A stretch of DNA of 35,542 nt from Caldisericota bacterium (GTDB lineage Bacteria > Caldisericota > Caldisericia > Caldisericales > Caldisericaceae): the NCBI GenBank assembly GCA_034717215.1, contig JAYELD010000089.1, positions 1 through 35,542 of the forward strand, given 5' to 3'. The position numbers and the translations under genes were made by a program. Under the pieces are notes generated by a model. The model had not been told where the DNA came from. It saw only the letters and a program-made list of their open reading frames with translations, and did not search any database. Positions within the stretch are counted from its first letter, which is position 1, and every line of letters begins with the position of its first letter. Shown one piece after another: positions 4,478-19,638 of the stretch.

Positions 4478-4505
4478 TTGACTTTACTTCACTTCTGTGT
4501 AAAAT
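4478..4505 (+). promoter_or_regulatory. Candidate main promoter of the pheS operon
   Basis: TTGACT (4478-4483), a 16-nt spacer and TAAAAT (4500-4505) predict a start near 4512. That is just upstream of the pheS ribosome binding site ATGGAGG (4516-4522). I see no T-box, long leader or terminator between this promoter and pheS. Confidence 0.6.
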
Positions 4506-4528
4506 TGATAATCAAATGGAGGTTTGTT

Positions 4529-5551
4529 ATGGAAGACAAAATTAAACAAATAAAAGAAGAATTCAAAGAGAAAATAAAAAATAAATCTCTGAAAGAATTG
4601 AAAGAACTTGAAATCTATTTTCTTGGAAGAAAAGGGAAAATAGGTGTTCTTTTTCAACTTTTTAAAACTGTGCCAAAGGAACGACGAAAGCATTTTGGCG
4701 CAAAGATTAATGAACTGAAAAGTTTCATAGAAAAAGGGATATCAGCAGAAATTCAAAGAACTGAATCTATAGAGGCAAGCCACAAACTGGAGGAAGAAAA
4801 AATTGATGTAACACTGCCGGGGATAAAATTGCATACAGGGGAGCTGCATATTCTTTCTCAAACAATATCTCGTGCGGAAGATATCTTTCTTTCTATGGGA
4901 TTTGACGTAATGATTGGCCCTGAAATCGAAGAAGATTATTATAACTTTGAAGCACTAAATATTCCTGAATTTCATCCGGCCCGAGCTATGCAGGATACAT
5001 TTTATCTATCTAAGAAAATTCTTCTTAGAACGCAAACATCTCCTATCCAAGTTAGAACAATGGAAAAATACAAACCTCCAATACGAATTATTGCGATGGG
5101 GAGGTGTTATCGAAAAGATGCTCCTGATAGTTCTCATTTTCCTGTTTTTCATCAAATAGAAGGACTTGTTGTAGACAAAAAAGTTACATTTGCAAATCTT
5201 AAGGGGACACTTTCTCTTTTCGCAAAAAGAATGTTTGGAGAAGTGGTAAAAGTGAGATTCACACCCTCTTATTTCCCGTTTGTTGAACCCGGAGCAGAAA
5301 CATCGATTAGTTGTGAAATTTGTGGAGGCAAAGGCTGCTCTGTATGCCAAAATACAGGATGGCTGGAGATGGGAGGTTCTGGAATGGTCCACCCGAATGT
5401 GTTGAAAAATGTGGGTATTGACCCCGAAATTTATCAGGGTTTTGCATTTGGTTGGGGGATAGAACGTATTGCGATGGTAAAGCATAAAATACCTGATATA
5501 CGCATGTTCTACCAGAATGATTTACGATTTTTAAAGCAATTTAGAGGATAG
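4529..5551 (+). CDS. pheS: Phenylalanyl-tRNA synthetase alpha subunit
   Basis: PheS is the catalytic half of the (alpha-beta)2 enzyme that charges tRNA-Phe. The 340-residue product has an N-terminal coiled coil (about 1-90) for tRNA contact, then the class II core: RTQTSPIQVRTME, motif 2 around FHQIEGLVVD, and motif 3 GFAFGWGIERIAM near the end. A four-cysteine zinc-ribbon-like insert, CEICGGKGCSVC, precedes MVHPNVL. The start is fixed by GGAGG 7 nt upstream. An in-frame start at 4478 overlaps the promoter and is rejected. pheT follows after 11 nt. Confidence 0.98.
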   Translation: MEDKIKQIKEEFKEKIKNKSLKELKELEIYFLGRKGKIGVLFQLFKTVPKERRKHFGAKINELKSFIEKGISAEIQRTESIEASHKLEEEKIDVTLPGIKLHTGELHILSQTISRAEDIFLSMGFDVMIGPEIEEDYYNFEALNIPEFHPARAMQDTFYLSKKILLRTQTSPIQVRTMEKYKPPIRIIAMGRCYRKDAPDSSHFPVFHQIEGLVVDKKVTFANLKGTLSLFAKRMFGEVVKVRFTPSYFPFVEPGAETSISCEICGGKGCSVCQNTGWLEMGGSGMVHPNVLKNVGIDPEIYQGFAFGWGIERIAMVKHKIPDIRMFYQNDLRFLKQFRG

Positions 5552-5562
5552 AGAGGTGGTAC

Positions 5563-7968
5563 ATGCTTACATCGATAAAAATGTTGAAAAGCATTATTCA
5601 ATTTGACTATACTCCGGAAGAACTTGGAGAGAAGCTTTCAATGATGGGGCTTGAAGTGGAAGGAATCACTAAGGGCAGGCACAGATTTGATGGCATTATA
5701 ACTGGAAAAGTTAAAACAATTCACAGCATTACTGATACAAAGCTTAATAGGGCTATTATTAACGTGGGTAATGAAGATGTCCAGATTATTACTACCGCTT
5801 CAAATTTAAAAAATGGAGACATTGTACCTGTAGCATTACCGCATAGTAAAGTTGCTTCCGGTACGAATATTTTGAAAAAGGATTTTAAAGGAGTTGCGTC
5901 AAGTGGAATGCTTTGTTCTTATTTAGAACTAGGGCTTGACCCTGAAATTTTAGGCAGCAAAGAAAAGGAAGGAATTTTAATATTCCCAACCGATACACCA
6001 GTGGGAGAAAAGATTGAAGATATTTTACCAATCGATGATGATTATCTTGAAATCTCCCTTCTTCCCGATAGAGCAGATGCTTTTTGTTTGCGAGGTGTTG
6101 CACGCTGGATCGAGATTATAAAAGCAAAGGAAGAAGACAGGCGAGCAGATTTTTCTCAATTAGAAGAAGCGGTTTCTTTAAAAACGAAGGGTGTTACGAA
6201 TATTCCAATTATTATAGAGGATAAGAATCTCTGTCCTTTTTATTCTGGAAGATTTATTAAGGATGTTGTTGTCACAGATTCTTTGCTTTTATTACGGCAA
6301 AAACTTTTCATGCTGAGAATACGTCCTATAAATAGTGTTGTTGATATTACCAATTTTGTGCTGGGTTTTTATGGGCAACCTCTGCATGCGTTTGATGCAG
6401 ATATTATCAAAGGGAAAATATATATAAGGCCTGCAAAAAAAGGAGAAAAGATAAAGACACTTGACGAAATCGAGAGAAATTTATCTAACGTAAATCTTGT
6501 TATTGCAGATGAATCAGGACCCATTGCCATTGCAGGAGTAATAGGTGGATTTAAAACGGCTGTTACTGAGAAAACGAAAAACATTCTTTTGGAAAGTGCT
6601 TATTTCTCCCCACGATGTGTTGCAAGAAGCGTAAGGAGTTTGGGTATTGCTACTGATGCGTCTGCTACTTTTGGAAGGTGTGCTGACCCTATATTTCCTT
6701 CGAAAGCTTCTATTATTGCAGCTAATCTTATAGCAAAAGAGACTTGCGGGGTTCCGACAAAAGATAACGCAGTGTCATGCCCGGCGCCTAAAAATCCCGT
6801 AAATCTGAGAATAGCTCGCATTAAAAAGATATTGGGTGAAAAAGTAGAGAAGAAAAATCTCAGGAAATATTTTAGTTTTGAAGGCTTTGACTATATTGAA
6901 AAGAAAGATTATTTCATAGTAACTGCTCCTTCTTTCAGAGCGGATATTAAAGAGGAAATAGACCTTATTGAAGAAATTGTGCGAATGAAGGGGTACAACG
7001 AATTTGGAGAAGCACTAATTGTAGGGGAACTAAAAGATGCTAAACGAACTGAATATGAAAATTTTATACGAGCCTTAAAAGAGAAACTTGTTAAATTGGG
7101 ATTAGACGAAGTACAAACTATTTCTCTTGTCGGCGAATCTTCTTTTGATCTTATTGAATATACGGATAAAAAGAAATTAATAAAATTACTTAATCCTCTT
7201 TCAATAGATATGGCATTTATGCGTCCTTTGCTTCTTCCTACAATGCTTTCTGTGCTAGAACGGAACAAAAAATCTGAGAATGTAAATGTTTCTATATTTG
7301 AAGTGGGAAAAGTATTTTACAAAGAAAAGTTATTTAAAGAAACAGATGAATTGGGAATATTGCTCTCAGGTGCAAGGACTAGCAAGAACTATCTCGGAGT
7401 GCATTTTCCTTACAGTTTATTATACCTTAAGGGGCTATTTGAAGAATTGTTTTTATATTATGATATTCATGTTACTTTTGAGGCAGAAAAGTTTTCGTTC
7501 ATGCATCCATACCAGTCTGCCGGTATTTATCATAAGGGAGAGAAAATTGGCTACTTAGGCACAATAAGCATGGTTGTATTAAATAAACTTGGTTTGACAG
7601 ATGAAGTTTTTTACGGTGCAATTAACGTTGAAAAACTATTGGAGTATTATGGCAGAAAAATTAATTTTAAGACATTTTCATTATACCCTTCTGTGAAGAG
7701 GGATATTGCTATTATTGTTGATGAAGGTACTGCCGAAAAGGATGTGAAAAACGCAATTCTTTCTGTTGCTCCACGTGAGCTCCAAAAGATAACCCTTTTT
7801 GACATTTATAAAGGGTCTCCGCTACCTGAAGGAAAGAAAAATCTTGCATATTCTCTTGAATTTTCATCTGTTGATAAGACACTGAAGGGGGAGGAGATTA
7901 ACAAATTCATTAAAATTCTTGAAGAGACTCTGCAGAGAGAGGTAAAAGGAAAGCTTAGAAAAGAATGA
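5563..7968 (+). CDS. pheT: Phenylalanyl-tRNA synthetase beta subunit
   Basis: The 801-residue product is full length for bacterial PheT. Visible parts are the N-terminal domain (MLTSIKMLKS), an OB-fold tRNA-binding domain (about 40-150, including SNLKNGD and GMLCSYLELGLD), the B3/B4 editing domain (about 215-370, PINSVVDITNFVL and HAFDAD), the B5 domain (about 400-470), and a C-terminal ferredoxin-like anticodon-binding domain (last 95 residues, FSLYPSVKRDIAIIV). GAGAGGTGG precedes ATG. The stop overlaps the polX start by 4 nt, so translation is probably coupled. Confidence 0.97.
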   Translation: MLTSIKMLKSIIQFDYTPEELGEKLSMMGLEVEGITKGRHRFDGIITGKVKTIHSITDTKLNRAIINVGNEDVQIITTASNLKNGDIVPVALPHSKVASGTNILKKDFKGVASSGMLCSYLELGLDPEILGSKEKEGILIFPTDTPVGEKIEDILPIDDDYLEISLLPDRADAFCLRGVARWIEIIKAKEEDRRADFSQLEEAVSLKTKGVTNIPIIIEDKNLCPFYSGRFIKDVVVTDSLLLLRQKLFMLRIRPINSVVDITNFVLGFYGQPLHAFDADIIKGKIYIRPAKKGEKIKTLDEIERNLSNVNLVIADESGPIAIAGVIGGFKTAVTEKTKNILLESAYFSPRCVARSVRSLGIATDASATFGRCADPIFPSKASIIAANLIAKETCGVPTKDNAVSCPAPKNPVNLRIARIKKILGEKVEKKNLRKYFSFEGFDYIEKKDYFIVTAPSFRADIKEEIDLIEEIVRMKGYNEFGEALIVGELKDAKRTEYENFIRALKEKLVKLGLDEVQTISLVGESSFDLIEYTDKKKLIKLLNPLSIDMAFMRPLLLPTMLSVLERNKKSENVNVSIFEVGKVFYKEKLFKETDELGILLSGARTSKNYLGVHFPYSLLYLKGLFEELFLYYDIHVTFEAEKFSFMHPYQSAGIYHKGEKIGYLGTISMVVLNKLGLTDEVFYGAINVEKLLEYYGRKINFKTFSLYPSVKRDIAIIVDEGTAEKDVKNAILSVAPRELQKITLFDIYKGSPLPEGKKNLAYSLEFSSVDKTLKGEEINKFIKILEETLQREVKGKLRKE

Positions 7969-9635
7969 CGAATTGGAATATTGCCTGTGTTTTGTTAGAT
8001 ACAAGAGACTTACTCCTCCTTAAAGGTGAAAAATTTCTTGCATCTATTTATGAAAAGAGTGCTTACTCAGTGAGTGCGTTGGAATTTCCTTTGAGTAGTT
8101 CATATGAGATTCCTCTTTTCTTGCCTCAAAATATAAGAGAAAATATACAGGAAATTTTGAATACAGGCAATTTTACTTTAAAAGAGAACCTTGAGAAAGA
8201 AGTTCCCAAAGGAATGCAAGTTCTCTTGAGGCTTCCCGGTATGTATCCTGAAAATATAGTGAAACTTTATACAAGGGCAGATATAGATTCTGTAGCTGAT
8301 CTCTCAAAAGCAATACGTGATGGAAAAATTCGGAAAAATCGAGAATTTGGATTAAGAATGGAGGAGCAACTCAGGAAAAGTTTACTACTGTACCAGAATA
8401 ATACACGAGAATTAACTCTTTTTGACGGATATACCTATGGAAACAGTATAGTTGCTTTACTAAAAACAAAAGGTGTTAAGAGAGTTGAAATTGCTGGAAG
8501 TGTTCGCAGAGGGAAAGAGCGGGTAAATAATATTAATTTTGTTGTTTTGAGTGATGGCGAGAAAACAAAGGAAATAATTGAAAAAAGTCTCTCTTATAAA
8601 AGAATAGAGAAAGAAGTGGATGACTATATATCTTTAAAAGATAAGAGAAATATTTTGCTTAAATTTCTTATTGTGGATGAACCATATTTTTCTTCTGCTA
8701 TGATTTATTATACTGGCTCTAAGATGCACAACATCAGGATTAAAGAGATAGGGAAGGCGAAAGGATTTGAATGTGCAAAGAGAGGGTACCTTCTTGTTCC
8801 AGGAGAAGGTGAGGAAAATGTTTATGAGAAGCTTGGAATGCAATATATTCCGCCTGAAATAAGAGAAGGCGAGGAAGAGATAGATTTATCTCTTCGTTTT
8901 TCATTGCCATTTTTGATACAGGAAGAGGATATAAAGGGAGACCTTCATGTGCATACGAATTTTAGTGACGGGATGAATAGTTTAAGGGAGATAAAGGAAG
9001 AAAGTTTTTTTCATAAATACGAGTATGTCGCAATTACAGACCATTCCTCATCACTAAAAGTCGCAAATGGCTTATCTTCGAAAAGACTATTGAAACAAAT
9101 GGAGTTTGTTGATAAAATAAATAAAGAAAGAGATTTTCCAGTTTTATTAAAGGGAAGCGAAGTCGAGATAAATAAAGATGGAACGTTGGATTTTGGAGAT
9201 GAGATACTTTCCAGGTTGGACTTTGTGGTTTGTGCGCTGCATAGCGGATTTGACAGCAGTGCAACAGAAAATACTGAAAGAATTGTTAGTGCTCTTTCAA
9301 ATAAATTTGTAGATGTATTTGCTCATCCTACGGGGAAAATGATTGATGTAAGACAAGGTTATGCTGTTAGCCTATCAAAGGTATTTGAGGTAGCTGCTAA
9401 AACTGATGTAGCAATGGAGATAAACCTTTTTCCAAAAAGGATGGATCTTTCTTCGGGGTTAGTGAAACAAGCGAGGAGGATGGGTGTAAAATATTTTTCT
9501 GTTGGCACAGATGCGCATAATATAGGGCATCTTAATATGATGGGTTATGGGATTAAAATTTTACGTCGGGCATGGTTAAAAAAAGGAGATGTGGTGAATA
9601 CACTTAATTTTAAAGAATTAAAGGAATTTTTATGA
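7965..9635 (+). CDS. polX: PolX-family protein with a degenerate polymerase site and an intact PHP domain
   Basis: Bacterial PolX joins a pol beta-like polymerase (gap-filling repair) to a PHP phosphoesterase with exonuclease and AP-site activity. This 556-residue protein has an N-terminal HhH-type region, a palm region with AGSVRRGKERVNNIN (177-191) and YYTGSKMHNIR (248-258), and a C-terminal PHP domain (about 325-556). Family members read G/K-D-I-D in the palm; here both aspartates are asparagine (N189, N191). The third catalytic aspartate, 18 residues before the TGS glycine, aligns to K233. Polymerase activity is therefore probably lost. The PHP ligands look intact: HVH (328-330), ITDH, GSEVEI, ALHSG, AHPTG and TDAH (515-518). 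It overlaps pheT and mutS2 by 4 nt each. I infer a structure-guided nuclease. Confidence 0.88.
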   Translation: MTNWNIACVLLDTRDLLLLKGEKFLASIYEKSAYSVSALEFPLSSSYEIPLFLPQNIRENIQEILNTGNFTLKENLEKEVPKGMQVLLRLPGMYPENIVKLYTRADIDSVADLSKAIRDGKIRKNREFGLRMEEQLRKSLLLYQNNTRELTLFDGYTYGNSIVALLKTKGVKRVEIAGSVRRGKERVNNINFVVLSDGEKTKEIIEKSLSYKRIEKEVDDYISLKDKRNILLKFLIVDEPYFSSAMIYYTGSKMHNIRIKEIGKAKGFECAKRGYLLVPGEGEENVYEKLGMQYIPPEIREGEEEIDLSLRFSLPFLIQEEDIKGDLHVHTNFSDGMNSLREIKEESFFHKYEYVAITDHSSSLKVANGLSSKRLLKQMEFVDKINKERDFPVLLKGSEVEINKDGTLDFGDEILSRLDFVVCALHSGFDSSATENTERIVSALSNKFVDVFAHPTGKMIDVRQGYAVSLSKVFEVAAKTDVAMEINLFPKRMDLSSGLVKQARRMGVKYFSVGTDAHNIGHLNMMGYGIKILRRAWLKKGDVVNTLNFKELKEFL

Positions 9636-11980
9636 ATGAAGAAATCATAAAATCATTAGGATTTGATAAAGTAAGGAAACAACTTGAAGATCTTTGTGTT
9701 ACCGAAAGTGCTAAATTTATGGCAAGAAATTTGCTGCCATATGATAATATTGAATTGGCTGAAAGAGCCATACATGAAACAACTCAAGGGAGAGATTTTT
9801 ATAAGCAGGAAGGTGCTTTGCCTTTCTTAGAATTTGTTGGCATTTACCCTATTATTGATAGGATAAAAGTGCTTTCACCCATATCTGGGGAAGAATTGCT
9901 ACAAACAGCATCGGTGCTTGAAACAATTGGTGAAATCAAAAAGATGCTTTATTCATGTAAAGATGATTTCCCGCTTCTTTCTCATTATTCTAATTCGCTT
10001 AAAAAATTTACTGGGATTGTTTCTAAAATTAGATTAGCTATCGGACCTGATGGAAAAATTGTAGACAGCGCTTCTCCTCTTATCTCTATCTTAAGAAGAG
10101 AGATTTATACTACCCATATGAAGATTCAAACTATTTTGCAAAGAATTATTTATTCAAAACAGTACGAAAATATTGTGCAGGACCAAATTATCACAACAAG
10201 AAATGGCAGGTACGTTATACCTATTAAGCAATCGGGAAAGACAAATTTCTCTTGTGTTGTCCAGGATGAATCTAGCAGCAGACTTACACTTTTTGTGGAA
10301 CCTTTATCTGTTGTTGAATTGAATAATAAATTGCGAGAGATCTCATTAAAAGAAAAGCAAGAAGAAGAGCGGATTATTATTGAGATAGAAAAGGAAACTC
10401 TTGCTCGGATGGATGATTTACTCTCGTCGTTAAATGTCATAGAAAAGCTTGATTTTATATTTGCAAAAGGTAAACTTTCTATATTTATGGATGGAAATGA
10501 AGTGACGCTTACTGATAGGAAAAAAATACGAATTGTACAGGGCAGGCATCCATTTATTCAAAAAAATAGTGTTGTGCCTATTGATGTAGAAATAGGCGAT
10601 AGCAGCGGGTACCATATGTTAATTATTACAGGCCCCAATACTGGAGGGAAGACAGTTACATTAAAAACTACAGGGCTGTTTGTTCTGATGGCAGAGTCTG
10701 GATTACATTTGCCTGCGTATTCAAATTCAGAGATAGGATTCTATAAAGATGTGTTCGCTGATATTGGTGACGAGCAGAGCATTCAGCAGAGTTTATCTAC
10801 GTTTTCCTCTCATATTAAAAGAATCATCAATATACTTTTGAATGCAAACAAAGACAGTCTTGTGCTTTTAGATGAACTGGGTGCTGGAACAGACCCAGAA
10901 GAAGGGTCTGCACTTGGCTATGCTATACTTAAGGACTTGTATAATAGAAACATAATAACACTTGCATCGACACATCACAGCAAACTCAAAGAGTTCCCTT
11001 ACGAATTTACTTTTGCACGAAATGCATCTGTTGGTTTTGATGTTGAGACTTTACAGCCGACTTATAAACTGTATATTGGCGTCCCAGGGGGCAGCCATGC
11101 GCTCATTATTGCCGAAAAGCTTGGCATGCCAGAAAAAGTGCTCAGTGATTCAAGGAGAGAACTTTCTGAAGAACATGCTATGGCACAGGAAATGCTCTCT
11201 AAAATTTCATTAGACCGGGAAAAAATTGATAAATCAAAAGTAGATATAGAGAACAATCAAAAAGAGGTAGAAACGTTGAAGGAAATTTATACAAAGAAAC
11301 TTGAGGATCTAGAGAACAGGAAAAAAGAAGAGATAAAAAAAGCGCATAACGAGGCACAAAAAATTGTTGAAGATACACAGTCTAGAATGGACAACATCAT
11401 GAACAATCTCGAAAATTACATAAAGAGCCAAAAAGCGGTCCAGGAAGTAAAAAAGCAAGTTAAAGAAAAAGGAGAAGAAATAGAGGAGAAATTAGAGCAA
11501 GCTAATAGAGATGGAGATGTGCGCGTTAAAATGGCAGATATTGGGGAAGGTGATATGGTTTATCTACCTTCTTTTAAAAAACATGGGCTTATCTTACAAA
11601 AGTTAGAAGATAAGGGCAAAATAGTAGTTCAAGTAGGTGGTATTAGAGCAACTGTTTCTCTTGACGCTATTGAGAAAGCTAAATCGCTTTATGAGGAAAG
11701 TAAGCGTCAGAATGTAGAAGGCTTATTTGAAGAAGAAGTTTCGATGAAATTGGATTTGCATGGCTGCAGGGTAGAAGAAGCTATAGGAACACTTGACAAA
11801 TACCTTGACTCTGCTTACCTTGTTGGTCTTCCTTTTGTATATATTGTGCATGGAAAAGGTACTGGTGCATTGCGTAACGCTGTTGTTGAGTATCTTAGAA
11901 AACATCCTCATGTGTTAAATTTCTACACCGGAAAGCCAGAAGAAGGTGGGATCGGCGCAACGATTGTGTATCTTAAATAG
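9632..11980 (+). CDS. mutS2: Endonuclease MutS2
   Basis: MutS2 is a MutS-family ATPase without the mismatch-recognition domain. It acts on branched DNA and, in some bacteria, on collided ribosomes. The 782-residue product has the core/lever region (1-300), Walker A GPNTGGKT (334-341), Walker B LLDELGAGTDPEEG (Asp414, Glu415), the STHHSKLKEF segment, a long charged coiled coil (about 520-630) and a C-terminal Smr nuclease domain with LDLHG (707-711) and HGKGTGAL (from 740). All key motifs look intact, unlike its two neighbours. Start and stop are tightly coupled to polX (ATGA overlap), and dnaQ/dinG follows after 12 nt. Confidence 0.96.
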   Translation: MNEEIIKSLGFDKVRKQLEDLCVTESAKFMARNLLPYDNIELAERAIHETTQGRDFYKQEGALPFLEFVGIYPIIDRIKVLSPISGEELLQTASVLETIGEIKKMLYSCKDDFPLLSHYSNSLKKFTGIVSKIRLAIGPDGKIVDSASPLISILRREIYTTHMKIQTILQRIIYSKQYENIVQDQIITTRNGRYVIPIKQSGKTNFSCVVQDESSSRLTLFVEPLSVVELNNKLREISLKEKQEEERIIIEIEKETLARMDDLLSSLNVIEKLDFIFAKGKLSIFMDGNEVTLTDRKKIRIVQGRHPFIQKNSVVPIDVEIGDSSGYHMLIITGPNTGGKTVTLKTTGLFVLMAESGLHLPAYSNSEIGFYKDVFADIGDEQSIQQSLSTFSSHIKRIINILLNANKDSLVLLDELGAGTDPEEGSALGYAILKDLYNRNIITLASTHHSKLKEFPYEFTFARNASVGFDVETLQPTYKLYIGVPGGSHALIIAEKLGMPEKVLSDSRRELSEEHAMAQEMLSKISLDREKIDKSKVDIENNQKEVETLKEIYTKKLEDLENRKKEEIKKAHNEAQKIVEDTQSRMDNIMNNLENYIKSQKAVQEVKKQVKEKGEEIEEKLEQANRDGDVRVKMADIGEGDMVYLPSFKKHGLILQKLEDKGKIVVQVGGIRATVSLDAIEKAKSLYEESKRQNVEGLFEEEVSMKLDLHGCRVEEAIGTLDKYLDSAYLVGLPFVYIVHGKGTGALRNAVVEYLRKHPHVLNFYTGKPEEGGIGATIVYLK

Positions 11981-11992
11981 AAAGGAGCTTTG

Positions 11993-14221
11993 GTGACTGG
12001 AGACGGGCTCGTTCTTGTTTTTTTTGATCTTGAAACTACAGGGCTAAATATTGAAAGAGACGAAGTAATAGAAGTAGGAGCTATAAAAGTCAGAAATAAC
12101 CAAGTTATTGAGAAGCTCAATACTTTTGTTAGACCCTCGTGTAATATTCCCCAGCTTATTACAAATCTTACCGGTATTACCTTTGAAGATGTTGAAAAAG
12201 CACCTGATGTAGAGGATGTGAAAAAGCGGCTCAAGGATTTCATTGGGAATTATCCGCTTATTGCTCATAATGTATCTTTTGATAGGGCATTTTTAGAAAA
12301 GTTATTGGGTGAAAAGATTGAAAATGAATTTTTTGATACACTTGAGCTTTCCAGGTTTTTTTTCCCCTCGCTTACATCGCACAGCTTGCAAAATCTTGTG
12401 AAGACGCTGTCCATTGAAAAAGATGAAGCACATAGAGCTCTTTCAGATGCAATGATGATGTATCTCCTGTTCCAGCGAATTGTAAGCAAACTAGAAAAAA
12501 CTGATCCATATCTTTTGCATAAATTAAAGGAAATATCACAAGGTATAAGAAACTATGAATTAATATTTGGTGAAAATTGGGAAAAGAAAAAGGAAAAAGA
12601 AATTGGTTTTAAATGGGAGAAAAAAATTATGCCTCCCGAAGCAGAATACCTACCTGTTTGTTCGGGGGAAGAGATAGGTATTATCGATAAATATTTTACT
12701 GGTATTTCTTTCATTCAAGCATCGTTGGATGATGAGTTGTTGCAGCAGTTTGTTCATGTTTCTTGCAAAAAGCCATTGATCGTTTCGACTTATGATGATT
12801 CCTCAAGGTCAACCGTAATGTCCGTTTTTAGAAAATCCGGGGTGAACGTGGCAAGCCTTGATGATATGAATAAATTTGTGTGTCCTGCTAAAATTGATTA
12901 TCTTCTGAAAAATACAGATCTTATTCCTTCATACTTTAAAATGTATTTTGCTGCACTTATTTTTTATTTTTATGATACTAAAGATTTTTTTCTTTATAAT
13001 GCTCCGGTTTATATTCAAAAAAATGCTTTGCTTCGTCTCATTTCTTTTTGTGACAAGAGTTGGGATACTTGTGAATATAGGCAGGTATGTCCCCTTGTTG
13101 ATGCCGTAAATGGAGCTTCAACTGCTTCTGTCATTATAACAAACCATTCTTTCTTTTTTAACAAACAAAATTATGAGCACTCTTTTTTGGATAGAAACGT
13201 TATTTTCCTGAATGCTTTCAGATTGCCGAAAGTATTTTCTTCTTTTGCAACACGCTTTTCTTTAAATGATTTAAAATTCTTTGCATCTTATTATCAATTT
13301 TCTAAGGAAAAGATAAATATCATTTTGGGTGTTTTTGAGCATATTGCTGGTCTCTCAGCGAAAGAAGAAATTCCTCCAGATCTTATCAAAACGCTTAAAG
13401 AAGTATTTTCAGGCATTAACATTAAACCGCTTGAGGTTTTTTTTGACGGAAGTTTTTTCTGGAGCGAAAAGAGAAGAGGGACGCTGGTTATCTGTTCTAC
13501 TTACAGTGATGCAAATATATTTTTTGAAAAACTTCAGGACATTGCAAAGTCTATTGTTTTTGTGTCACCCGAATTTGGCATCGCTGGGAGGCATAATCTT
13601 ATTTCTGAATTTTCAGGATTAAGGGGTAGTATTGTCAAACTTCCCACCACTCAAGAACAGGATAAAAAAGTTTTTTCTGTAGTACCACTGTTTTTATCTT
13701 TATCTAATCGAGATTTTTTCATAGATGAATTTACTGATTTTTTTGGAAAAGTGCACAAAAAGGGAGAAAAGAGTTTAATCCTATTTTCATCGCTAGATAT
13801 GTTGCGCAAAGCTTATTTTTCTCTAAAGAGAAATGGATTTGATGCGAAAGCACGAGGGGTCGACCTGCATGAAGAAGATGGCGAAATACAGATGATGTTG
13901 TATGATGTTACTCCCGCTTGCTCCGGGTGGAGCGAGATCTATTTTGTAAAAACGCCTACTTTTTTTTCACATGAACCTTTAGGTAGAGAAGAATACCTCA
14001 ATATTTCTTTTTTTACACTGAAAAACATTGCGATTGAACTCTTAAAAGATAGCGCATACTGTGTTTTATTTTATATTGATGGAAAGTTTAGGAATAAAAA
14101 TTTTAGAGAAAAAGCCGATGCTATATTTGTTTCTTTTCCATTCTATGCAGAACAAAAAAATGCTTTACCTTCAATAATTGATAATTGGAAGAAAAGAAAT
14201 AGGATTAAACCGAATCTTTGA
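11993..14221 (+). CDS. DnaQ-type exonuclease fused to a degenerate DinG-like helicase
   Basis: The N-terminal 165 residues form a complete DEDDh 3'-5' exonuclease: D12 and E14 in FDLETTGL, D97 in AHNVSFD, and H147/D152 in HRALSDA. The remaining 570 residues align by eye with DinG/XPD-type helicases but lack the motor. The Walker A position reads FIQASLDDELL instead of a GTGTGKT loop. The DEAH position reads VIFLNAF (403-409). The C-terminal helicase motifs are unrecognisable. Four cysteines (C297, C353, C360, C366), followed by IITNHSFFF, occupy the Fe-S cluster positions. GTG 11993 is chosen because AAGGAG (11982-11987) is 5 nt upstream; the in-frame TTG 11990 is too close. Probably an exonuclease with a non-motor DNA-binding or Fe-S scaffold. 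Confidence 0.85.
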   Translation: MTGDGLVLVFFDLETTGLNIERDEVIEVGAIKVRNNQVIEKLNTFVRPSCNIPQLITNLTGITFEDVEKAPDVEDVKKRLKDFIGNYPLIAHNVSFDRAFLEKLLGEKIENEFFDTLELSRFFFPSLTSHSLQNLVKTLSIEKDEAHRALSDAMMMYLLFQRIVSKLEKTDPYLLHKLKEISQGIRNYELIFGENWEKKKEKEIGFKWEKKIMPPEAEYLPVCSGEEIGIIDKYFTGISFIQASLDDELLQQFVHVSCKKPLIVSTYDDSSRSTVMSVFRKSGVNVASLDDMNKFVCPAKIDYLLKNTDLIPSYFKMYFAALIFYFYDTKDFFLYNAPVYIQKNALLRLISFCDKSWDTCEYRQVCPLVDAVNGASTASVIITNHSFFFNKQNYEHSFLDRNVIFLNAFRLPKVFSSFATRFSLNDLKFFASYYQFSKEKINIILGVFEHIAGLSAKEEIPPDLIKTLKEVFSGINIKPLEVFFDGSFFWSEKRRGTLVICSTYSDANIFFEKLQDIAKSIVFVSPEFGIAGRHNLISEFSGLRGSIVKLPTTQEQDKKVFSVVPLFLSLSNRDFFIDEFTDFFGKVHKKGEKSLILFSSLDMLRKAYFSLKRNGFDAKARGVDLHEEDGEIQMMLYDVTPACSGWSEIYFVKTPTFFSHEPLGREEYLNISFFTLKNIAIELLKDSAYCVLFYIDGKFRNKNFREKADAIFVSFPFYAEQKNALPSIIDNWKKRNRIKPNL

Positions 14222-14358: not shown

Positions 14359-14631
14359 ATGAAAAACAAAACAGAAACTTTGCGTATCTTTTATCTTTAT
14401 GGCGTGGGCATTGTTACGCTTGTTATGCTTGTTTTTGGTATCATTGCATTTACGTCCGGAGTACTTAACTTAGTATTTTTAAGAGAAGAAGCATTCGAAT
14501 GGGCTTACTCCATACGGAGCATCGTAAGGAATGCATCGCTCATTGTGGTAGGTGGGTTTATGTTCTTATATCATTGGAAAATTATTAGCAGAGAAAGACA
14601 TGTCAAAAAAGGGGTGAAAAGTGATGAATGA
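14359..14631 (+). CDS. Small membrane protein, DUF5671-like
   Basis: The 90-residue product has two hydrophobic helices (about residues 11-37 and 55-72) and a short basic tail (KIISRERHVKK). The pattern resembles DUF5671-type predicted membrane proteins, whose function is unknown; the family match is by eye. GGGAGG lies 8 nt upstream of ATG. The next gene overlaps its 3' end and encodes a similarly built protein that also ends W-x-x-x-x-x-E-R, so the two look like a tandem duplicate that may form a hetero-oligomer. Confidence 0.7.
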   Translation: MKNKTETLRIFYLYGVGIVTLVMLVFGIIAFTSGVLNLVFLREEAFEWAYSIRSIVRNASLIVVGGFMFLYHWKIISRERHVKKGVKSDE

Positions 14632-14911
14632 AGAAAAAGTTGATTTTTGGAGAAATTTATTTTTTTATATCGCTTCATTTATCGGGCTTATGATTTTTAT
14701 CTTTTCTATTGTGGGTGTTATTGGCAGTTTCTTTAGTGTAAGTTATCCCCATGTTGCTGATCCAAATATGGGCAAAGAACTGGCTAAGTCTGCTCCATAC
14801 ATCCATGTAGATGTGCGTTCTTTGATAAACAGTGGCACCGGGGCAGTTGTGGGTTTCTTTTTGTGGTTTTTCACCTGGCGTACCATTCAAAAGGAAAGGA
14901 ATATAATTTAA
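14624..14911 (+). CDS. Small membrane protein, paralogue of the preceding gene
   Basis: The 95-residue product has two membrane helices (about residues 13-37 and 68-87), an external loop of about 30 residues, and a tail WRTIQKERN that matches the previous protein's WKIISRERH. ATG 14624 is preferred to GTG 14621 because AAAGGGGTG (14608-14616) is better spaced. Its start overlaps the last codons of the first gene by 8 nt. Function is unknown; probably DUF5671-like. Confidence 0.7.
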   Translation: MNEEKVDFWRNLFFYIASFIGLMIFIFSIVGVIGSFFSVSYPHVADPNMGKELAKSAPYIHVDVRSLINSGTGAVVGFFLWFFTWRTIQKERNII

Positions 14912-16013: not shown

Positions 16014-17125
16014 CTATGATGAATTTATTTTTCTTCTCTTTCCTTTGGAGATAATAATAAATCCTACAAAAATAATCAGTCCCGCAAAGATAAATTGATA
16101 TTTTAAGCTTTTAAACAGCAGAGCAATAATTCCGGCAATAAACGGACCTGTAATGTTCCCCAGGCTTACTGAAGAAATAAGTATACCTGTTGCCGTTCCT
16201 GTTTCTTTATTATTTTCCATAATTTCATTTAACCCGCCTGCAAACATAAAGGCCCATCCAATTCCTGTAATAGCTTGCAAGGGCATAATCTGGAATGGAT
16301 ATCTGGCAAGAGAAAAAATGGAAATGCGAGAGCTAATATGAGGATTCCAAGCCCCGTGCCCCTCCATTTTATTCTATGTGCAACAAACTTAAGCGTTAAA
16401 AATTCAAATAAAGGATTTATGATTGTGATGCAACCTACCATAAAAGGTGTTGCTCCTAATTCGTACAGGAAAAGTATCCAAAATGTCCATGTCACATTTA
16501 TACCCGTGAATGTAAAGAATATTGCAAGGTATAAATTTATATTTTTTTTGATTATCTCCTTTGGAAACAGAGGTATGACAAAGGGTTTTATTTCTTCTTC
16601 TTTTAATTTTGAAACGAGAAGCAGGGAGATAAGATATAGTATGCCTACCGATACAAATATCCATCTAATGTTGACAAGAGTAGCAATTATGCTGGAGAGC
16701 CCCAGAAAAAAGGCAATGCCCAATGCGCCCCATGCGGTGTGATCATCCATTTTACCGCTGTTTTCATTTACATATGCGGCAAGTGCTCCCGGATATATAC
16801 CGATTGAGATTCCCTGCAATATCCTCAAAACAAAGAAATTTGGAAATGATGCAGAAAAAAATGAAACTGCATAGAATAGTCCGGCAGATATACATCCAAG
16901 AGAGATAATTTTTTTGCGTCCTAACTTGTCAGAGATTCTTCCAAAAACTGTTGCAGAGATAAACATTGATAATGCAAATGCAGTACCAAGGATACCTATT
17001 TCAAATCGCGTGGCTCCTAGCGTTTCTGCGAATTGAGGAATAAAAAGATCCGCCATGAGCGGTGCGCCTGAAACAATAAATTACACAATGAATCCTATTT
17101 TCAGATTTTTTCGTTTTGTTTGCAT
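16014..17125 (-). pseudogene. Major facilitator superfamily transporter, broken twice
   Basis: Read from ATG 17125, the protein begins MQTKRKNLKIGFIV, then meets TAA (17081-17083) inside the first membrane helix, and resumes FIVSGAPLMADLFIPQF. Later, GRISDKLGRKK is the classical MFS loop 2-3 motif. The frame is lost at an A6 run on the plus strand (16313-16318); the other frame then continues with ARYPFQIMPLQAITGIGWAFMF to the end. Joining the pieces gives a full 12-helix transporter of about 370 residues. Two independent lesions indicate a pseudogene. The frameshift alone could be a homopolymer error, but the stop codon could not. Substrate is unknown. It converges on the Nif3 gene, 6 nt away. 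Confidence 0.85.
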
Positions 17126-17571: not shown

Positions 17572-19638
17572 ATGTTTAGAAAACTAATTGTAGTTTTCAT
17601 TATACTTACCTTATCCTTGTGGCTCGTTTGGAATTCATTTTATCTAAAGGACTATTCGTTTAACGGGATTGATTTGGAGGAAGCAAAAGCTTCTTCAAGT
17701 AGAATTGTTAACTACTGGGTCAAAGTATTTCGTGGGGAGGGAAACGACGAAGCGTATGCTGTGACTCAGACATCTGACGAAAATTATGTTATAGTCGGCA
17801 GGAGCAACTCTTTCGGTCTTGAAAATCCCGACCTGGGGGACTATGATATGGTTTTAATTAAACTTTCTCCAGAAGGTTCTATCATTTGGAGTAAGCTCTT
17901 TGGAGGCACAAAATTCGATGAGGTATATGCAATACAAGAAACTTTTGATAAAGGGCTACTGCTTTTAGGTTCTACCAAATCCTTCAATGTTGGATTAAAA
18001 AATGCATTTATCATTAAGCTTGACGAAGATATGGAAATTCAGTGGGCAAAAACTTTGGGTAGTAATAAAATCAATGCGTTTGAACAAACCTCAGATAAAG
18101 GTTTTATACTTGCTGGAAGCTCAACATTTTCAACTTTAGGCGGCTCTGATGCAATCTTGATTAAGATAGATAAGGAAGGGAGAGTTAAATGGTCAAAAGT
18201 CTATGGTGGGAGTCAAAATGAAGAAATTCGCTCGGTCCATCAAACAATTGATGGGGGCTTTATAATGTCGGGTTCAACAAATTCATTTAGCTTTGGAGGA
18301 TCTGATTTTTTTATTGCAAAATTAGATCAGGCAGGAAGTACTGAGTGGGCAAGAGTCTTTGGTGGATCGAGTAATGATGTTTCAATATCGTCTTTTAGGA
18401 CTTCAGATGCAGGTTATTTGGTAGGCGGCTACACATATTCTTTCGGAATTGGAAATGTTGATGCACTTCTTATGAAACTTGATTCAAACGGTAATCCAAT
18501 CTGGATAAAGGTATTTGGGCAAGAAAATTATGATATGCCTCGTTCAATTATTCCCGTTTCGAGTGGAGGATTTGTTGTAACAGGTGGAAGAAAGCGGCCA
18601 GATTCCAACGATTTAGATATTTATGTTTCAAAATTTAATCAAGACGGCAATGCTCAGTGGACAAATATATTTAATGGGAGTAGTGATGAAGAAGCATTAT
18701 CAATAACTCAAACAACTGATGATGATTTAGTTGTAGTTGGATGGACTAAATCCTTTGGCTCCGGAGATTTAGATTTTATTGTCTTGCGGATGGATCCAGA
18801 TGGAGATGTTGAGTATTGTGGAGATTATATTAAAAAGCAAACAGTCGAAAGTAAATCAGAGATAGTGAATGGCAAAATCATTTCTCTTAGTTTCGAAGAT
18901 GTCGTAAGTAAAATTTTTTCTAAGGCCCGGAACGTTGCAAGCAGTACTATTTATATTGAAGTAAAAGATATATGTCCTGTTTTTTATGCTATTTCTGCAT
19001 CTTCTGGTTATGGTGGAAAAATTATACCGTCTGGCAAAATCGAGGTTATAAATGGCGAGGAAAGGACTTTTATAATAAAAGCTGATGAGGGTTTTAAAAT
19101 TAGCGCAATACTCATAGATGGAAATTCAATTGCAATAACAAGCGATCTGGAACAACATTATACTTTCACTAATGTACAAAAAGATCATACAATAACTGCA
19201 GAATTCGAAGAGGTGATTGAGAAAAAGATTACAATTATAATACTGCAACCAGATAATCCAATGATGACCGTGAATGGGAATCTTCAAGAAATAGACCTGG
19301 GCAGAGGCACAAAACCGGTTATTATCCCAGAATGGGGCAGGACTGTTGTTCCGATTAGAGCAATTGTTGAAGCACTTCACGGAACAATTGAATGGGATGG
19401 AGTAGAGAGAAAGGTAACTATTAGATTCAAAGATATAACAATAGAATTATGGATAGATAACCCGCAGGCAAAAGTAAATGGGATAGGTAAATGGATTGAT
19501 GAGAGTAACCATAATGTAAGACCTATTATAGTAAATGATAGGACAATGCTGCCTCTTCGCTTTATTGCAGAATCTCTCGGTTGTGAAGTTGAGTGGGATC
19601 CCAATACAAGGATAATAACGATAACGCATCAGGAATAA
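17572..19638 (+). CDS. Anchored seven-repeat beta-propeller protein with C-terminal stalk domains
   Basis: The 688-residue product has an N-terminal membrane anchor or signal (about 5-24). Seven repeats of about 52 residues follow, each starting with W-x-K-V-F-G-G (W49, W106, W158, W207, W259, W311, W363) and ending L-I-K-L-D-x-x-G, as expected for one seven-bladed propeller. Then come a bacterial repeat domain with SGYGGKIIPSG and FTNVQKDHTITAEF (about 473-546) and a copper amine oxidase N-terminal-like stalk pair (about 560-688: VVPIRAIVEAL and MLPLRFIAESLG). Such stalk domains are common in extracellular proteins of anaerobic and thermophilic bacteria. It is probably a surface protein for binding or sensing; the ligand is unknown. 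The start follows AAAGGGGGTGA. A terminator closes it. Confidence 0.9.
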   Translation: MFRKLIVVFIILTLSLWLVWNSFYLKDYSFNGIDLEEAKASSSRIVNYWVKVFRGEGNDEAYAVTQTSDENYVIVGRSNSFGLENPDLGDYDMVLIKLSPEGSIIWSKLFGGTKFDEVYAIQETFDKGLLLLGSTKSFNVGLKNAFIIKLDEDMEIQWAKTLGSNKINAFEQTSDKGFILAGSSTFSTLGGSDAILIKIDKEGRVKWSKVYGGSQNEEIRSVHQTIDGGFIMSGSTNSFSFGGSDFFIAKLDQAGSTEWARVFGGSSNDVSISSFRTSDAGYLVGGYTYSFGIGNVDALLMKLDSNGNPIWIKVFGQENYDMPRSIIPVSSGGFVVTGGRKRPDSNDLDIYVSKFNQDGNAQWTNIFNGSSDEEALSITQTTDDDLVVVGWTKSFGSGDLDFIVLRMDPDGDVEYCGDYIKKQTVESKSEIVNGKIISLSFEDVVSKIFSKARNVASSTIYIEVKDICPVFYAISASSGYGGKIIPSGKIEVINGEERTFIIKADEGFKISAILIDGNSIAITSDLEQHYTFTNVQKDHTITAEFEEVIEKKITIIILQPDNPMMTVNGNLQEIDLGRGTKPVIIPEWGRTVVPIRAIVEALHGTIEWDGVERKVTIRFKDITIELWIDNPQAKVNGIGKWIDESNHNVRPIIVNDRTMLPLRFIAESLGCEVEWDPNTRIITITHQE

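Follow-up and report, generated by a model that had tools for sequence, protein, structure and literature searches.

The iron-sulfur cluster of XPD- and DinG-type helicases could have a structural, DNA-wedge or redox-sensing function. Since mutation of the cluster kills the helicase, its function is difficult to tell apart from unwinding. The XPD-family proteins DinG (EcDinG) and YoaA of Escherichia coli have four Fe-S cysteines, intact Walker motifs and an intact motif VI, and carry no exonuclease domain; in the crystal structure of EcDinG, the cluster is present in the corresponding domain (PMC6300356). The ExoDinG proteins of Staphylococcus aureus, Bacillus subtilis and Listeria (PRK08074/TIGR01407) consist of a DEDDh exonuclease followed by motor domain 1 (MD1), an Fe-S-type domain and motor domain 2 (MD2). 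These Bacilli proteins keep all motor motifs and are devoid of Fe-S cysteines, the cysteine positions being occupied by N/L/D/D in Listeria and S/T/S/D in L. fermentum. The first report on the S. aureus protein SaDinG presented it as a helicase turned nuclease; a 2025 study of its structure and activity describes it as an ATP-dependent 5'-3' helicase without a cluster that unwinds DNA at low ATP (PMC12345164). Other DinG-like proteins have naturally lost one module, the exonuclease in pExoDinG and the cluster in CasDinG, the motor being kept in both (PMC11981726).

The reverse of the Bacilli arrangement was found in a 35,542-nt contig of a metagenome-assembled Caldisericota genome (JAYELD010000089.1, hereafter the window). 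As judged from its sequence, the protein exo-psiDinG combines a DEDDh 3'-5' exonuclease whose active site is intact with a relative of DinG that has its full length but no usable motor motifs. Among the genomes of the phylum, its homologues belong to two families, f1 and f2, which are probably the Caldisericaceae and the Cryosericaceae, respectively (names inferred from named relatives). Such a motorless class is absent from the subgroup scheme of a DinG review (PMC11981726), and literature searches found none described. The initial annotation of this locus had compared it with SaDinG as a helicase turned nuclease that lacks an Fe-S cluster; the lack of a cluster stands, and the loss of helicase function does not, since SaDinG unwinds DNA (PMC12345164).

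Domain layout and motor motifs of exo-psiDinG

The exo-psiDinG gene, which has homologues in Caldiserica, extends from 11990 to 14221 on the plus strand and encodes 743 residues from a TTG codon. An alternative GTG start at 11993 would give 742 residues; an AAAGGAG site lies just upstream and the Shine-Dalgarno fit of the two starts is equal. Residues are numbered here from the TTG codon, those of the initial annotation being one lower. The interval 12700-14221 proposed there is that of the DinG-like part and falls short of the whole ORF. The DEDDh exonuclease domain (residues 10-161; 12017-12472, plus strand) is recognized by Pfam RNase_T (2e-33). Its residues D13, E15, H93, D98, H148 and D153 correspond to SaDinG D10, E12, H90, D95, H149 and D154, and are invariant in all homologues covering them, in agreement with the earlier description of five of them as intact (D12, E14, D97, H147 and D152, here D13, E15, D98, H148 and D153). 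The best NCBIfam matches of the whole protein are the ExoDinG models PRK08074 (6e-51) and TIGR01407, mostly via the exonuclease.

On profile evidence, the region that follows the exonuclease is a real DinG homologue. A profile of 15 f1 homologues was compared by hhalign with E. coli DinG and YoaA and the DinG proteins of Listeria and L. fermentum, yielding a colinear alignment of 447 columns from motif Ia through to the end (E 3.6e-11), and the f2 profile matched the same set with E 2.6e-13, each E-value referring to one pairwise comparison. The profile-profile check suggested with the initial annotation thus did find homology to DinG. NCBIfam DinG/YoaA models match the DinG part of the window protein (residues 190-743; YoaA 2.1e-6), and the YoaA model matches 11 of 15 f1 proteins (best 1.2e-10) and 6/6 f2 proteins (best 1.2e-16). 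For the window protein, single-sequence Pfam searches of the DinG part gave no match, and Helicase_C_2 was matched weakly in only two family members. Among PDB profiles, E. coli DinG (6fwr) was matched at residues 194-238 with an E-value of 0.017, which is weak alone, and the PDB search using the f2 profile gave no match. AlphaFold models built on shallow alignments of three closely related sequences (the window protein, L031 and L032) had a pLDDT of 32.6 for the full protein and 50.3 for the Fe-S fragment, too low for either to be usable.

The alignments show that motifs I, II, III, V and VI have been lost; motif Ia and the MD2 framework, the latter shared with E. coli DinG and YoaA, can still be recognized. 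The former Walker A region (motif I, residues 240-255, SFIQASLDDELLQQFV; 12707-12754, plus strand) is missing GxGKT and reads ASLDDELL at the motif position, as had been noted earlier; the region is also shortened, the spacing from the strand to motif Ia being smaller than in E. coli DinG. The P-loop position was assigned by eye and MAFFT. Because the statistically supported profile alignment begins only at motif Ia, just downstream, the absence of a P-loop is more certain than the exact place assigned to it. Motif Ia persists as KPLIVST (residues 261-267; 12770-12790, plus strand), against KTLVVST in E. coli DinG. Alignment to DinG places L407, N408, A409 and F410 (13208-13219, plus strand) at the former DEAH box (motif II), which upholds the earlier reading of LNAF; N408 stands at the position of the catalytic glutamate (E249 in EcDinG, E465 in Listeria DinG). 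Motif III reads VSPEFG. In the former MD2 (residues 561-740; 13670-14209, plus strand), the fold trace is conserved but motifs V (FWEG.D) and VI (Q..GR..R) are lost, their positions reading YDVT followed by a deletion and FFTLKNIAIE, respectively.

Neither a P-loop (GxGKT/S), nor DEAH, nor QxxGRxxR was found in the DinG part of 21/21 homologues, the few GKS/GKT matches lying outside a P-loop context. A lone DEAH string at residue 145 was rejected as motif II, being the exonuclease's own motif around H148. ATPase and helicase activities are predicted to be absent because the motor motifs are lost. Exo-psiDinG has the DEDDh exonuclease with its catalytic residues and the C-terminal MD1, Fe-S/pFeS and MD2 homology of ExoDinG; since the SF2 motor motifs I, II, V and VI are missing from 21/21 homologues, it is filed as a motorless derivative and not as a typical ExoDinG helicase. 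Of the residues relevant to single-strand binding, K654 and P656 in the P-motif strand of DinG stay basic and proline in f1. In the Fe-S/HD1 region, the position of the EcDinG ssDNA contact R117 is basic in only 10/21 homologues, and R211 is without a basic counterpart in the aligned window protein, which counts against the single-strand clamp proposed below.

The cysteine quartet of the Fe-S-type domain

Alignment and conservation delimit an Fe-S-type domain at residues 291-390 (12860-13159, plus strand), which includes the segment ITNHSFFF. Its cysteines C298, C354, C361 and C367 (codons 12881-12883, 13049-13051, 13070-13072 and 13088-13090, plus strand) have the spacing C-x55-C-x6-C-x5-C. 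They align one-to-one with EcDinG C120, C194, C199 and C205, which we take to be the cluster ligands, and with YoaA C108, C168, C173 and C179. The initial annotation had placed four cysteines (C297, C353, C360 and C366 in its numbering) at the 4Fe-4S ligand positions of DinG/XPD, followed by ITNHSFFF; the alignment to EcDinG is exact for the cysteines and pairs ITNHSFFF with VANHALV. Exo-psiDinG thus has the four ligand-position cysteines of XPD/DinG Fe-S helicases.

The quartet is kept in all readable homologues of both families (29 sequences, 28 for C298) and accounts for four of the 12 invariant columns of the DinG region in 21 sequences. Only these four of the nine cysteines of the region are conserved (hypergeometric P 1.5e-5, columns being treated as independent). 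Y326 and P339 are likewise invariant across f1 and f2. The earlier proposal that the motor was lost and the Fe-S ligands retained is therefore borne out beyond the window gene, across two families. This pattern suggests that the putative cluster is useful without a motor. We infer that the cysteines hold a [4Fe-4S] cluster which keeps the Fe-S domain folded, their presumed convergence in space resting on the alignment.

Distribution and genomic context

Among 54 genomes of the phylum, exo-psiDinG is present in every f2 genome, in some as fragments, and in 15 of 18 from f1; the three f1 genomes without it have a completeness of 55-75%. Close relatives of the window genome include Caldiserica bacterium UBA646 and B38_G4. 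The genome-wide search of the 54 genomes did not find it outside f1 and f2; for f3-f7, absence rests mainly on this search, the inspection of mutS2 flanks covering plus-oriented loci. The f1 and f2 proteins share at most 30% identity. The simplest history would be a loss of the motor before the two families split, followed by vertical inheritance. A PF13307 search detected no further DinG-family helicase that is convincing in f1, where the one match, in G014, is weak and below the cutoff; in f2 its only matches were exo-psiDinG itself. Viral contigs contained DnaQ-type exonucleases only and no DinG. In f3, exonuclease-only ORFs were considered as an end point of helicase loss and rejected; they are probably unrelated DnaQ genes because they are not in the mutS2 neighbourhood. 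A stand-alone 197-residue DEDDh-type exonuclease of this family forms a conserved pair (L120, 6820-8594; L122, 4848-6622) with a directly downstream AAA ATPase gene, which overlaps it by 4 nt and whose product resembles RarA/MgsA by eye.

In the window, exo-psiDinG is preceded on the plus strand by mutS2 (9632-11980; Smr and MSSS domains, TIGR01069 4e-243) and by the conserved upstream operon genes pheS (4478-5551), pheT (5563-7968) and polX (7965-9635). In all homologues with a long enough contig, mutS2 lies directly upstream on the same strand, at a distance of -4 to about 130 nt, the gene order being pheS-pheT-polX-mutS2-exo-psiDinG in f1 and mutS2-exo-psiDinG in f2. The two genes overlap by 4 nt in the g7 genomes and are probably co-transcribed. 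Downstream, two neighbouring small DUF5671 genes (14359-14911, plus strand) separate exo-psiDinG from nif3; several relatives have one longer ORF in this place, suggesting a split or a duplication. Further on, an MFS transporter gene (16014-17056, minus strand) is read in two overlapping ORFs (16014-16367 and 16229-17056), and is intact in the relative L046 (about 370 residues, 11607-12719), pointing to a frameshift in the window, either real or an assembly error. At 17572-19638 (plus strand) lies the gene of a 688-residue protein that is probably exported, contains beta-propeller-like repeats and has Cu_amine_oxidN1 as its C-terminal domain.

A putative single-strand clamp, its alternatives and its known counterparts

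The reading we favour, with a probability of roughly 0.6, is that exo-psiDinG is a motorless ExoDinG in which a 3'-5' DEDDh exo(ribo)nuclease is served by a former XPD/DinG helicase acting as a passive, probably Fe-S-stabilized single-strand clamp. The former helicase would neither bind nor hydrolyse ATP; its Fe-S domain, folded around a [4Fe-4S] cluster on the four cysteines, and the two ex-motor domains would form the clamp, which would feed ssDNA or RNA by its 3' end to the exonuclease and limit digestion to unpaired 3' tails. In Listeria, the ATPase-dead DinG variant E465A, altered at the position of N408, keeps a prominent 3'-5' exonuclease activity (PMC12774634), so that nuclease function without a motor is precedented at a residue lost in exo-psiDinG. 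In the SaDinG crystal, ssDNA touches both MD2 and the Exo domain (PMC12345164), and the inactivated helicase domains of AddB/RecC scan ssDNA next to a nuclease (PMC4824097). Together with K654 and P656, these precedents argue for a passive clamp. A weaker step of the proposal, put forward because the genes are adjacent and probably co-transcribed, is that exo-psiDinG and MutS2 act jointly in the quality control of nucleic acids or ribosomes. In S. aureus, dinG requires both nuclease and ATPase in vivo, and the motorless form may therefore not do the same job.

The cysteines could serve other ends than holding a clamp in shape. The oxidation state or occupancy of the cluster might toggle the exonuclease, a redox switch replacing the ATP control of S. 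aureus ExoDinG. The activity of E. coli DinG is reportedly redox-controlled via its cluster (Ren et al. 2009, as cited in PMC12345164), ATP inhibits the SaDinG nuclease, a control lost along with the P-loop in exo-psiDinG, and an invariant quartet is compatible with such a switch. Sequence features cannot, however, tell a sensor cluster from a structural one, and a switch as the main role is considered unlikely. It is quite unlikely that the cysteines bind Zn2+ or merely hold the domain together: C-x55-C-x6-C-x5-C is chemically capable of binding zinc, but its spacing and positions match the DinG/YoaA Fe-S ligands residue for residue, and the studied relatives that bear the quartet, E. coli DinG and YoaA, are regarded as Fe-S proteins.

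The motor might also be supplied in trans: exo-psiDinG would then be the nuclease subunit, and another ATPase, most simply MutS2, would drive it on substrates such as collided ribosomes, stalled mRNA or branched DNA. The strict adjacency to mutS2 in f1 and f2, down to the 4-nt overlap in g7, is in line with this, as are the splitting of stalled ribosomes by B. subtilis MutS2 (PMC10897456) and the degradation of unprocessed rRNA by Listeria DinG (PMC12774634). Nevertheless, MutS2 also occurs in families f3-f7, which are without exo-psiDinG, and operon position alone is no proof of contact, making this arrangement unlikely. That the DinG part is a decaying tail, only the exonuclease being of importance, is disfavoured as very improbable. 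It does evolve faster, with a dN/dS of 0.21-0.26 (residues 236-740) against 0.06-0.11 for the exonuclease in four congeneric genomes, i.e. about 0.25 vs about 0.08. These values are well below 1 nonetheless: the DinG part is under purifying selection, and a pseudogene was rejected on this ground. The open frames of complete homologues in both families span 678-837 residues, and the four cysteines, Y326, P339 and other residues are invariant across f1 and f2.

A broader reading, somewhat better than evenly probable in our estimate, is a lineage-wide natural loss of the motor: in the ancestor shared by f1 and f2, an ExoDinG would have lost its ATPase completely and kept a functional [4Fe-4S] domain under strict selection, a helicase-nuclease thus becoming an ATP-independent, Fe-S-dependent exonuclease. 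If true, the cluster of DinG/XPD proteins would have a function that can be parted from unwinding. Since SaDinG unwinds without a cluster, the Bacilli proteins represent a motor without a cluster and those of Caldiserica cluster ligands without a motor. The two groups amount to a double dissociation made by evolution, through which the cluster question becomes testable in a small protein of an anaerobic, partly thermophilic lineage. Unlike exo-psiDinG, pExoDinG and CasDinG lost their module from around a retained motor (PMC11981726). A DinG fusion of family f5 (L065-L069) also has intact motor motifs, with several cysteines in the Fe-S position and no DnaQ; its N-terminal domain resembles a PD-(D/E)XK nuclease by eye. 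The nearest parallel is provided by AddB/RecC, where a motif-less helicase fold beside a nuclease is reused as an ssDNA scanner (PMC4824097). These proteins differ in belonging to SF1 and not SF2, in being complexed with an active motor subunit and in their nuclease fold. After AddB/RecC, exo-psiDinG would thus be a second, SF2-type case of a dead helicase beside a nuclease.
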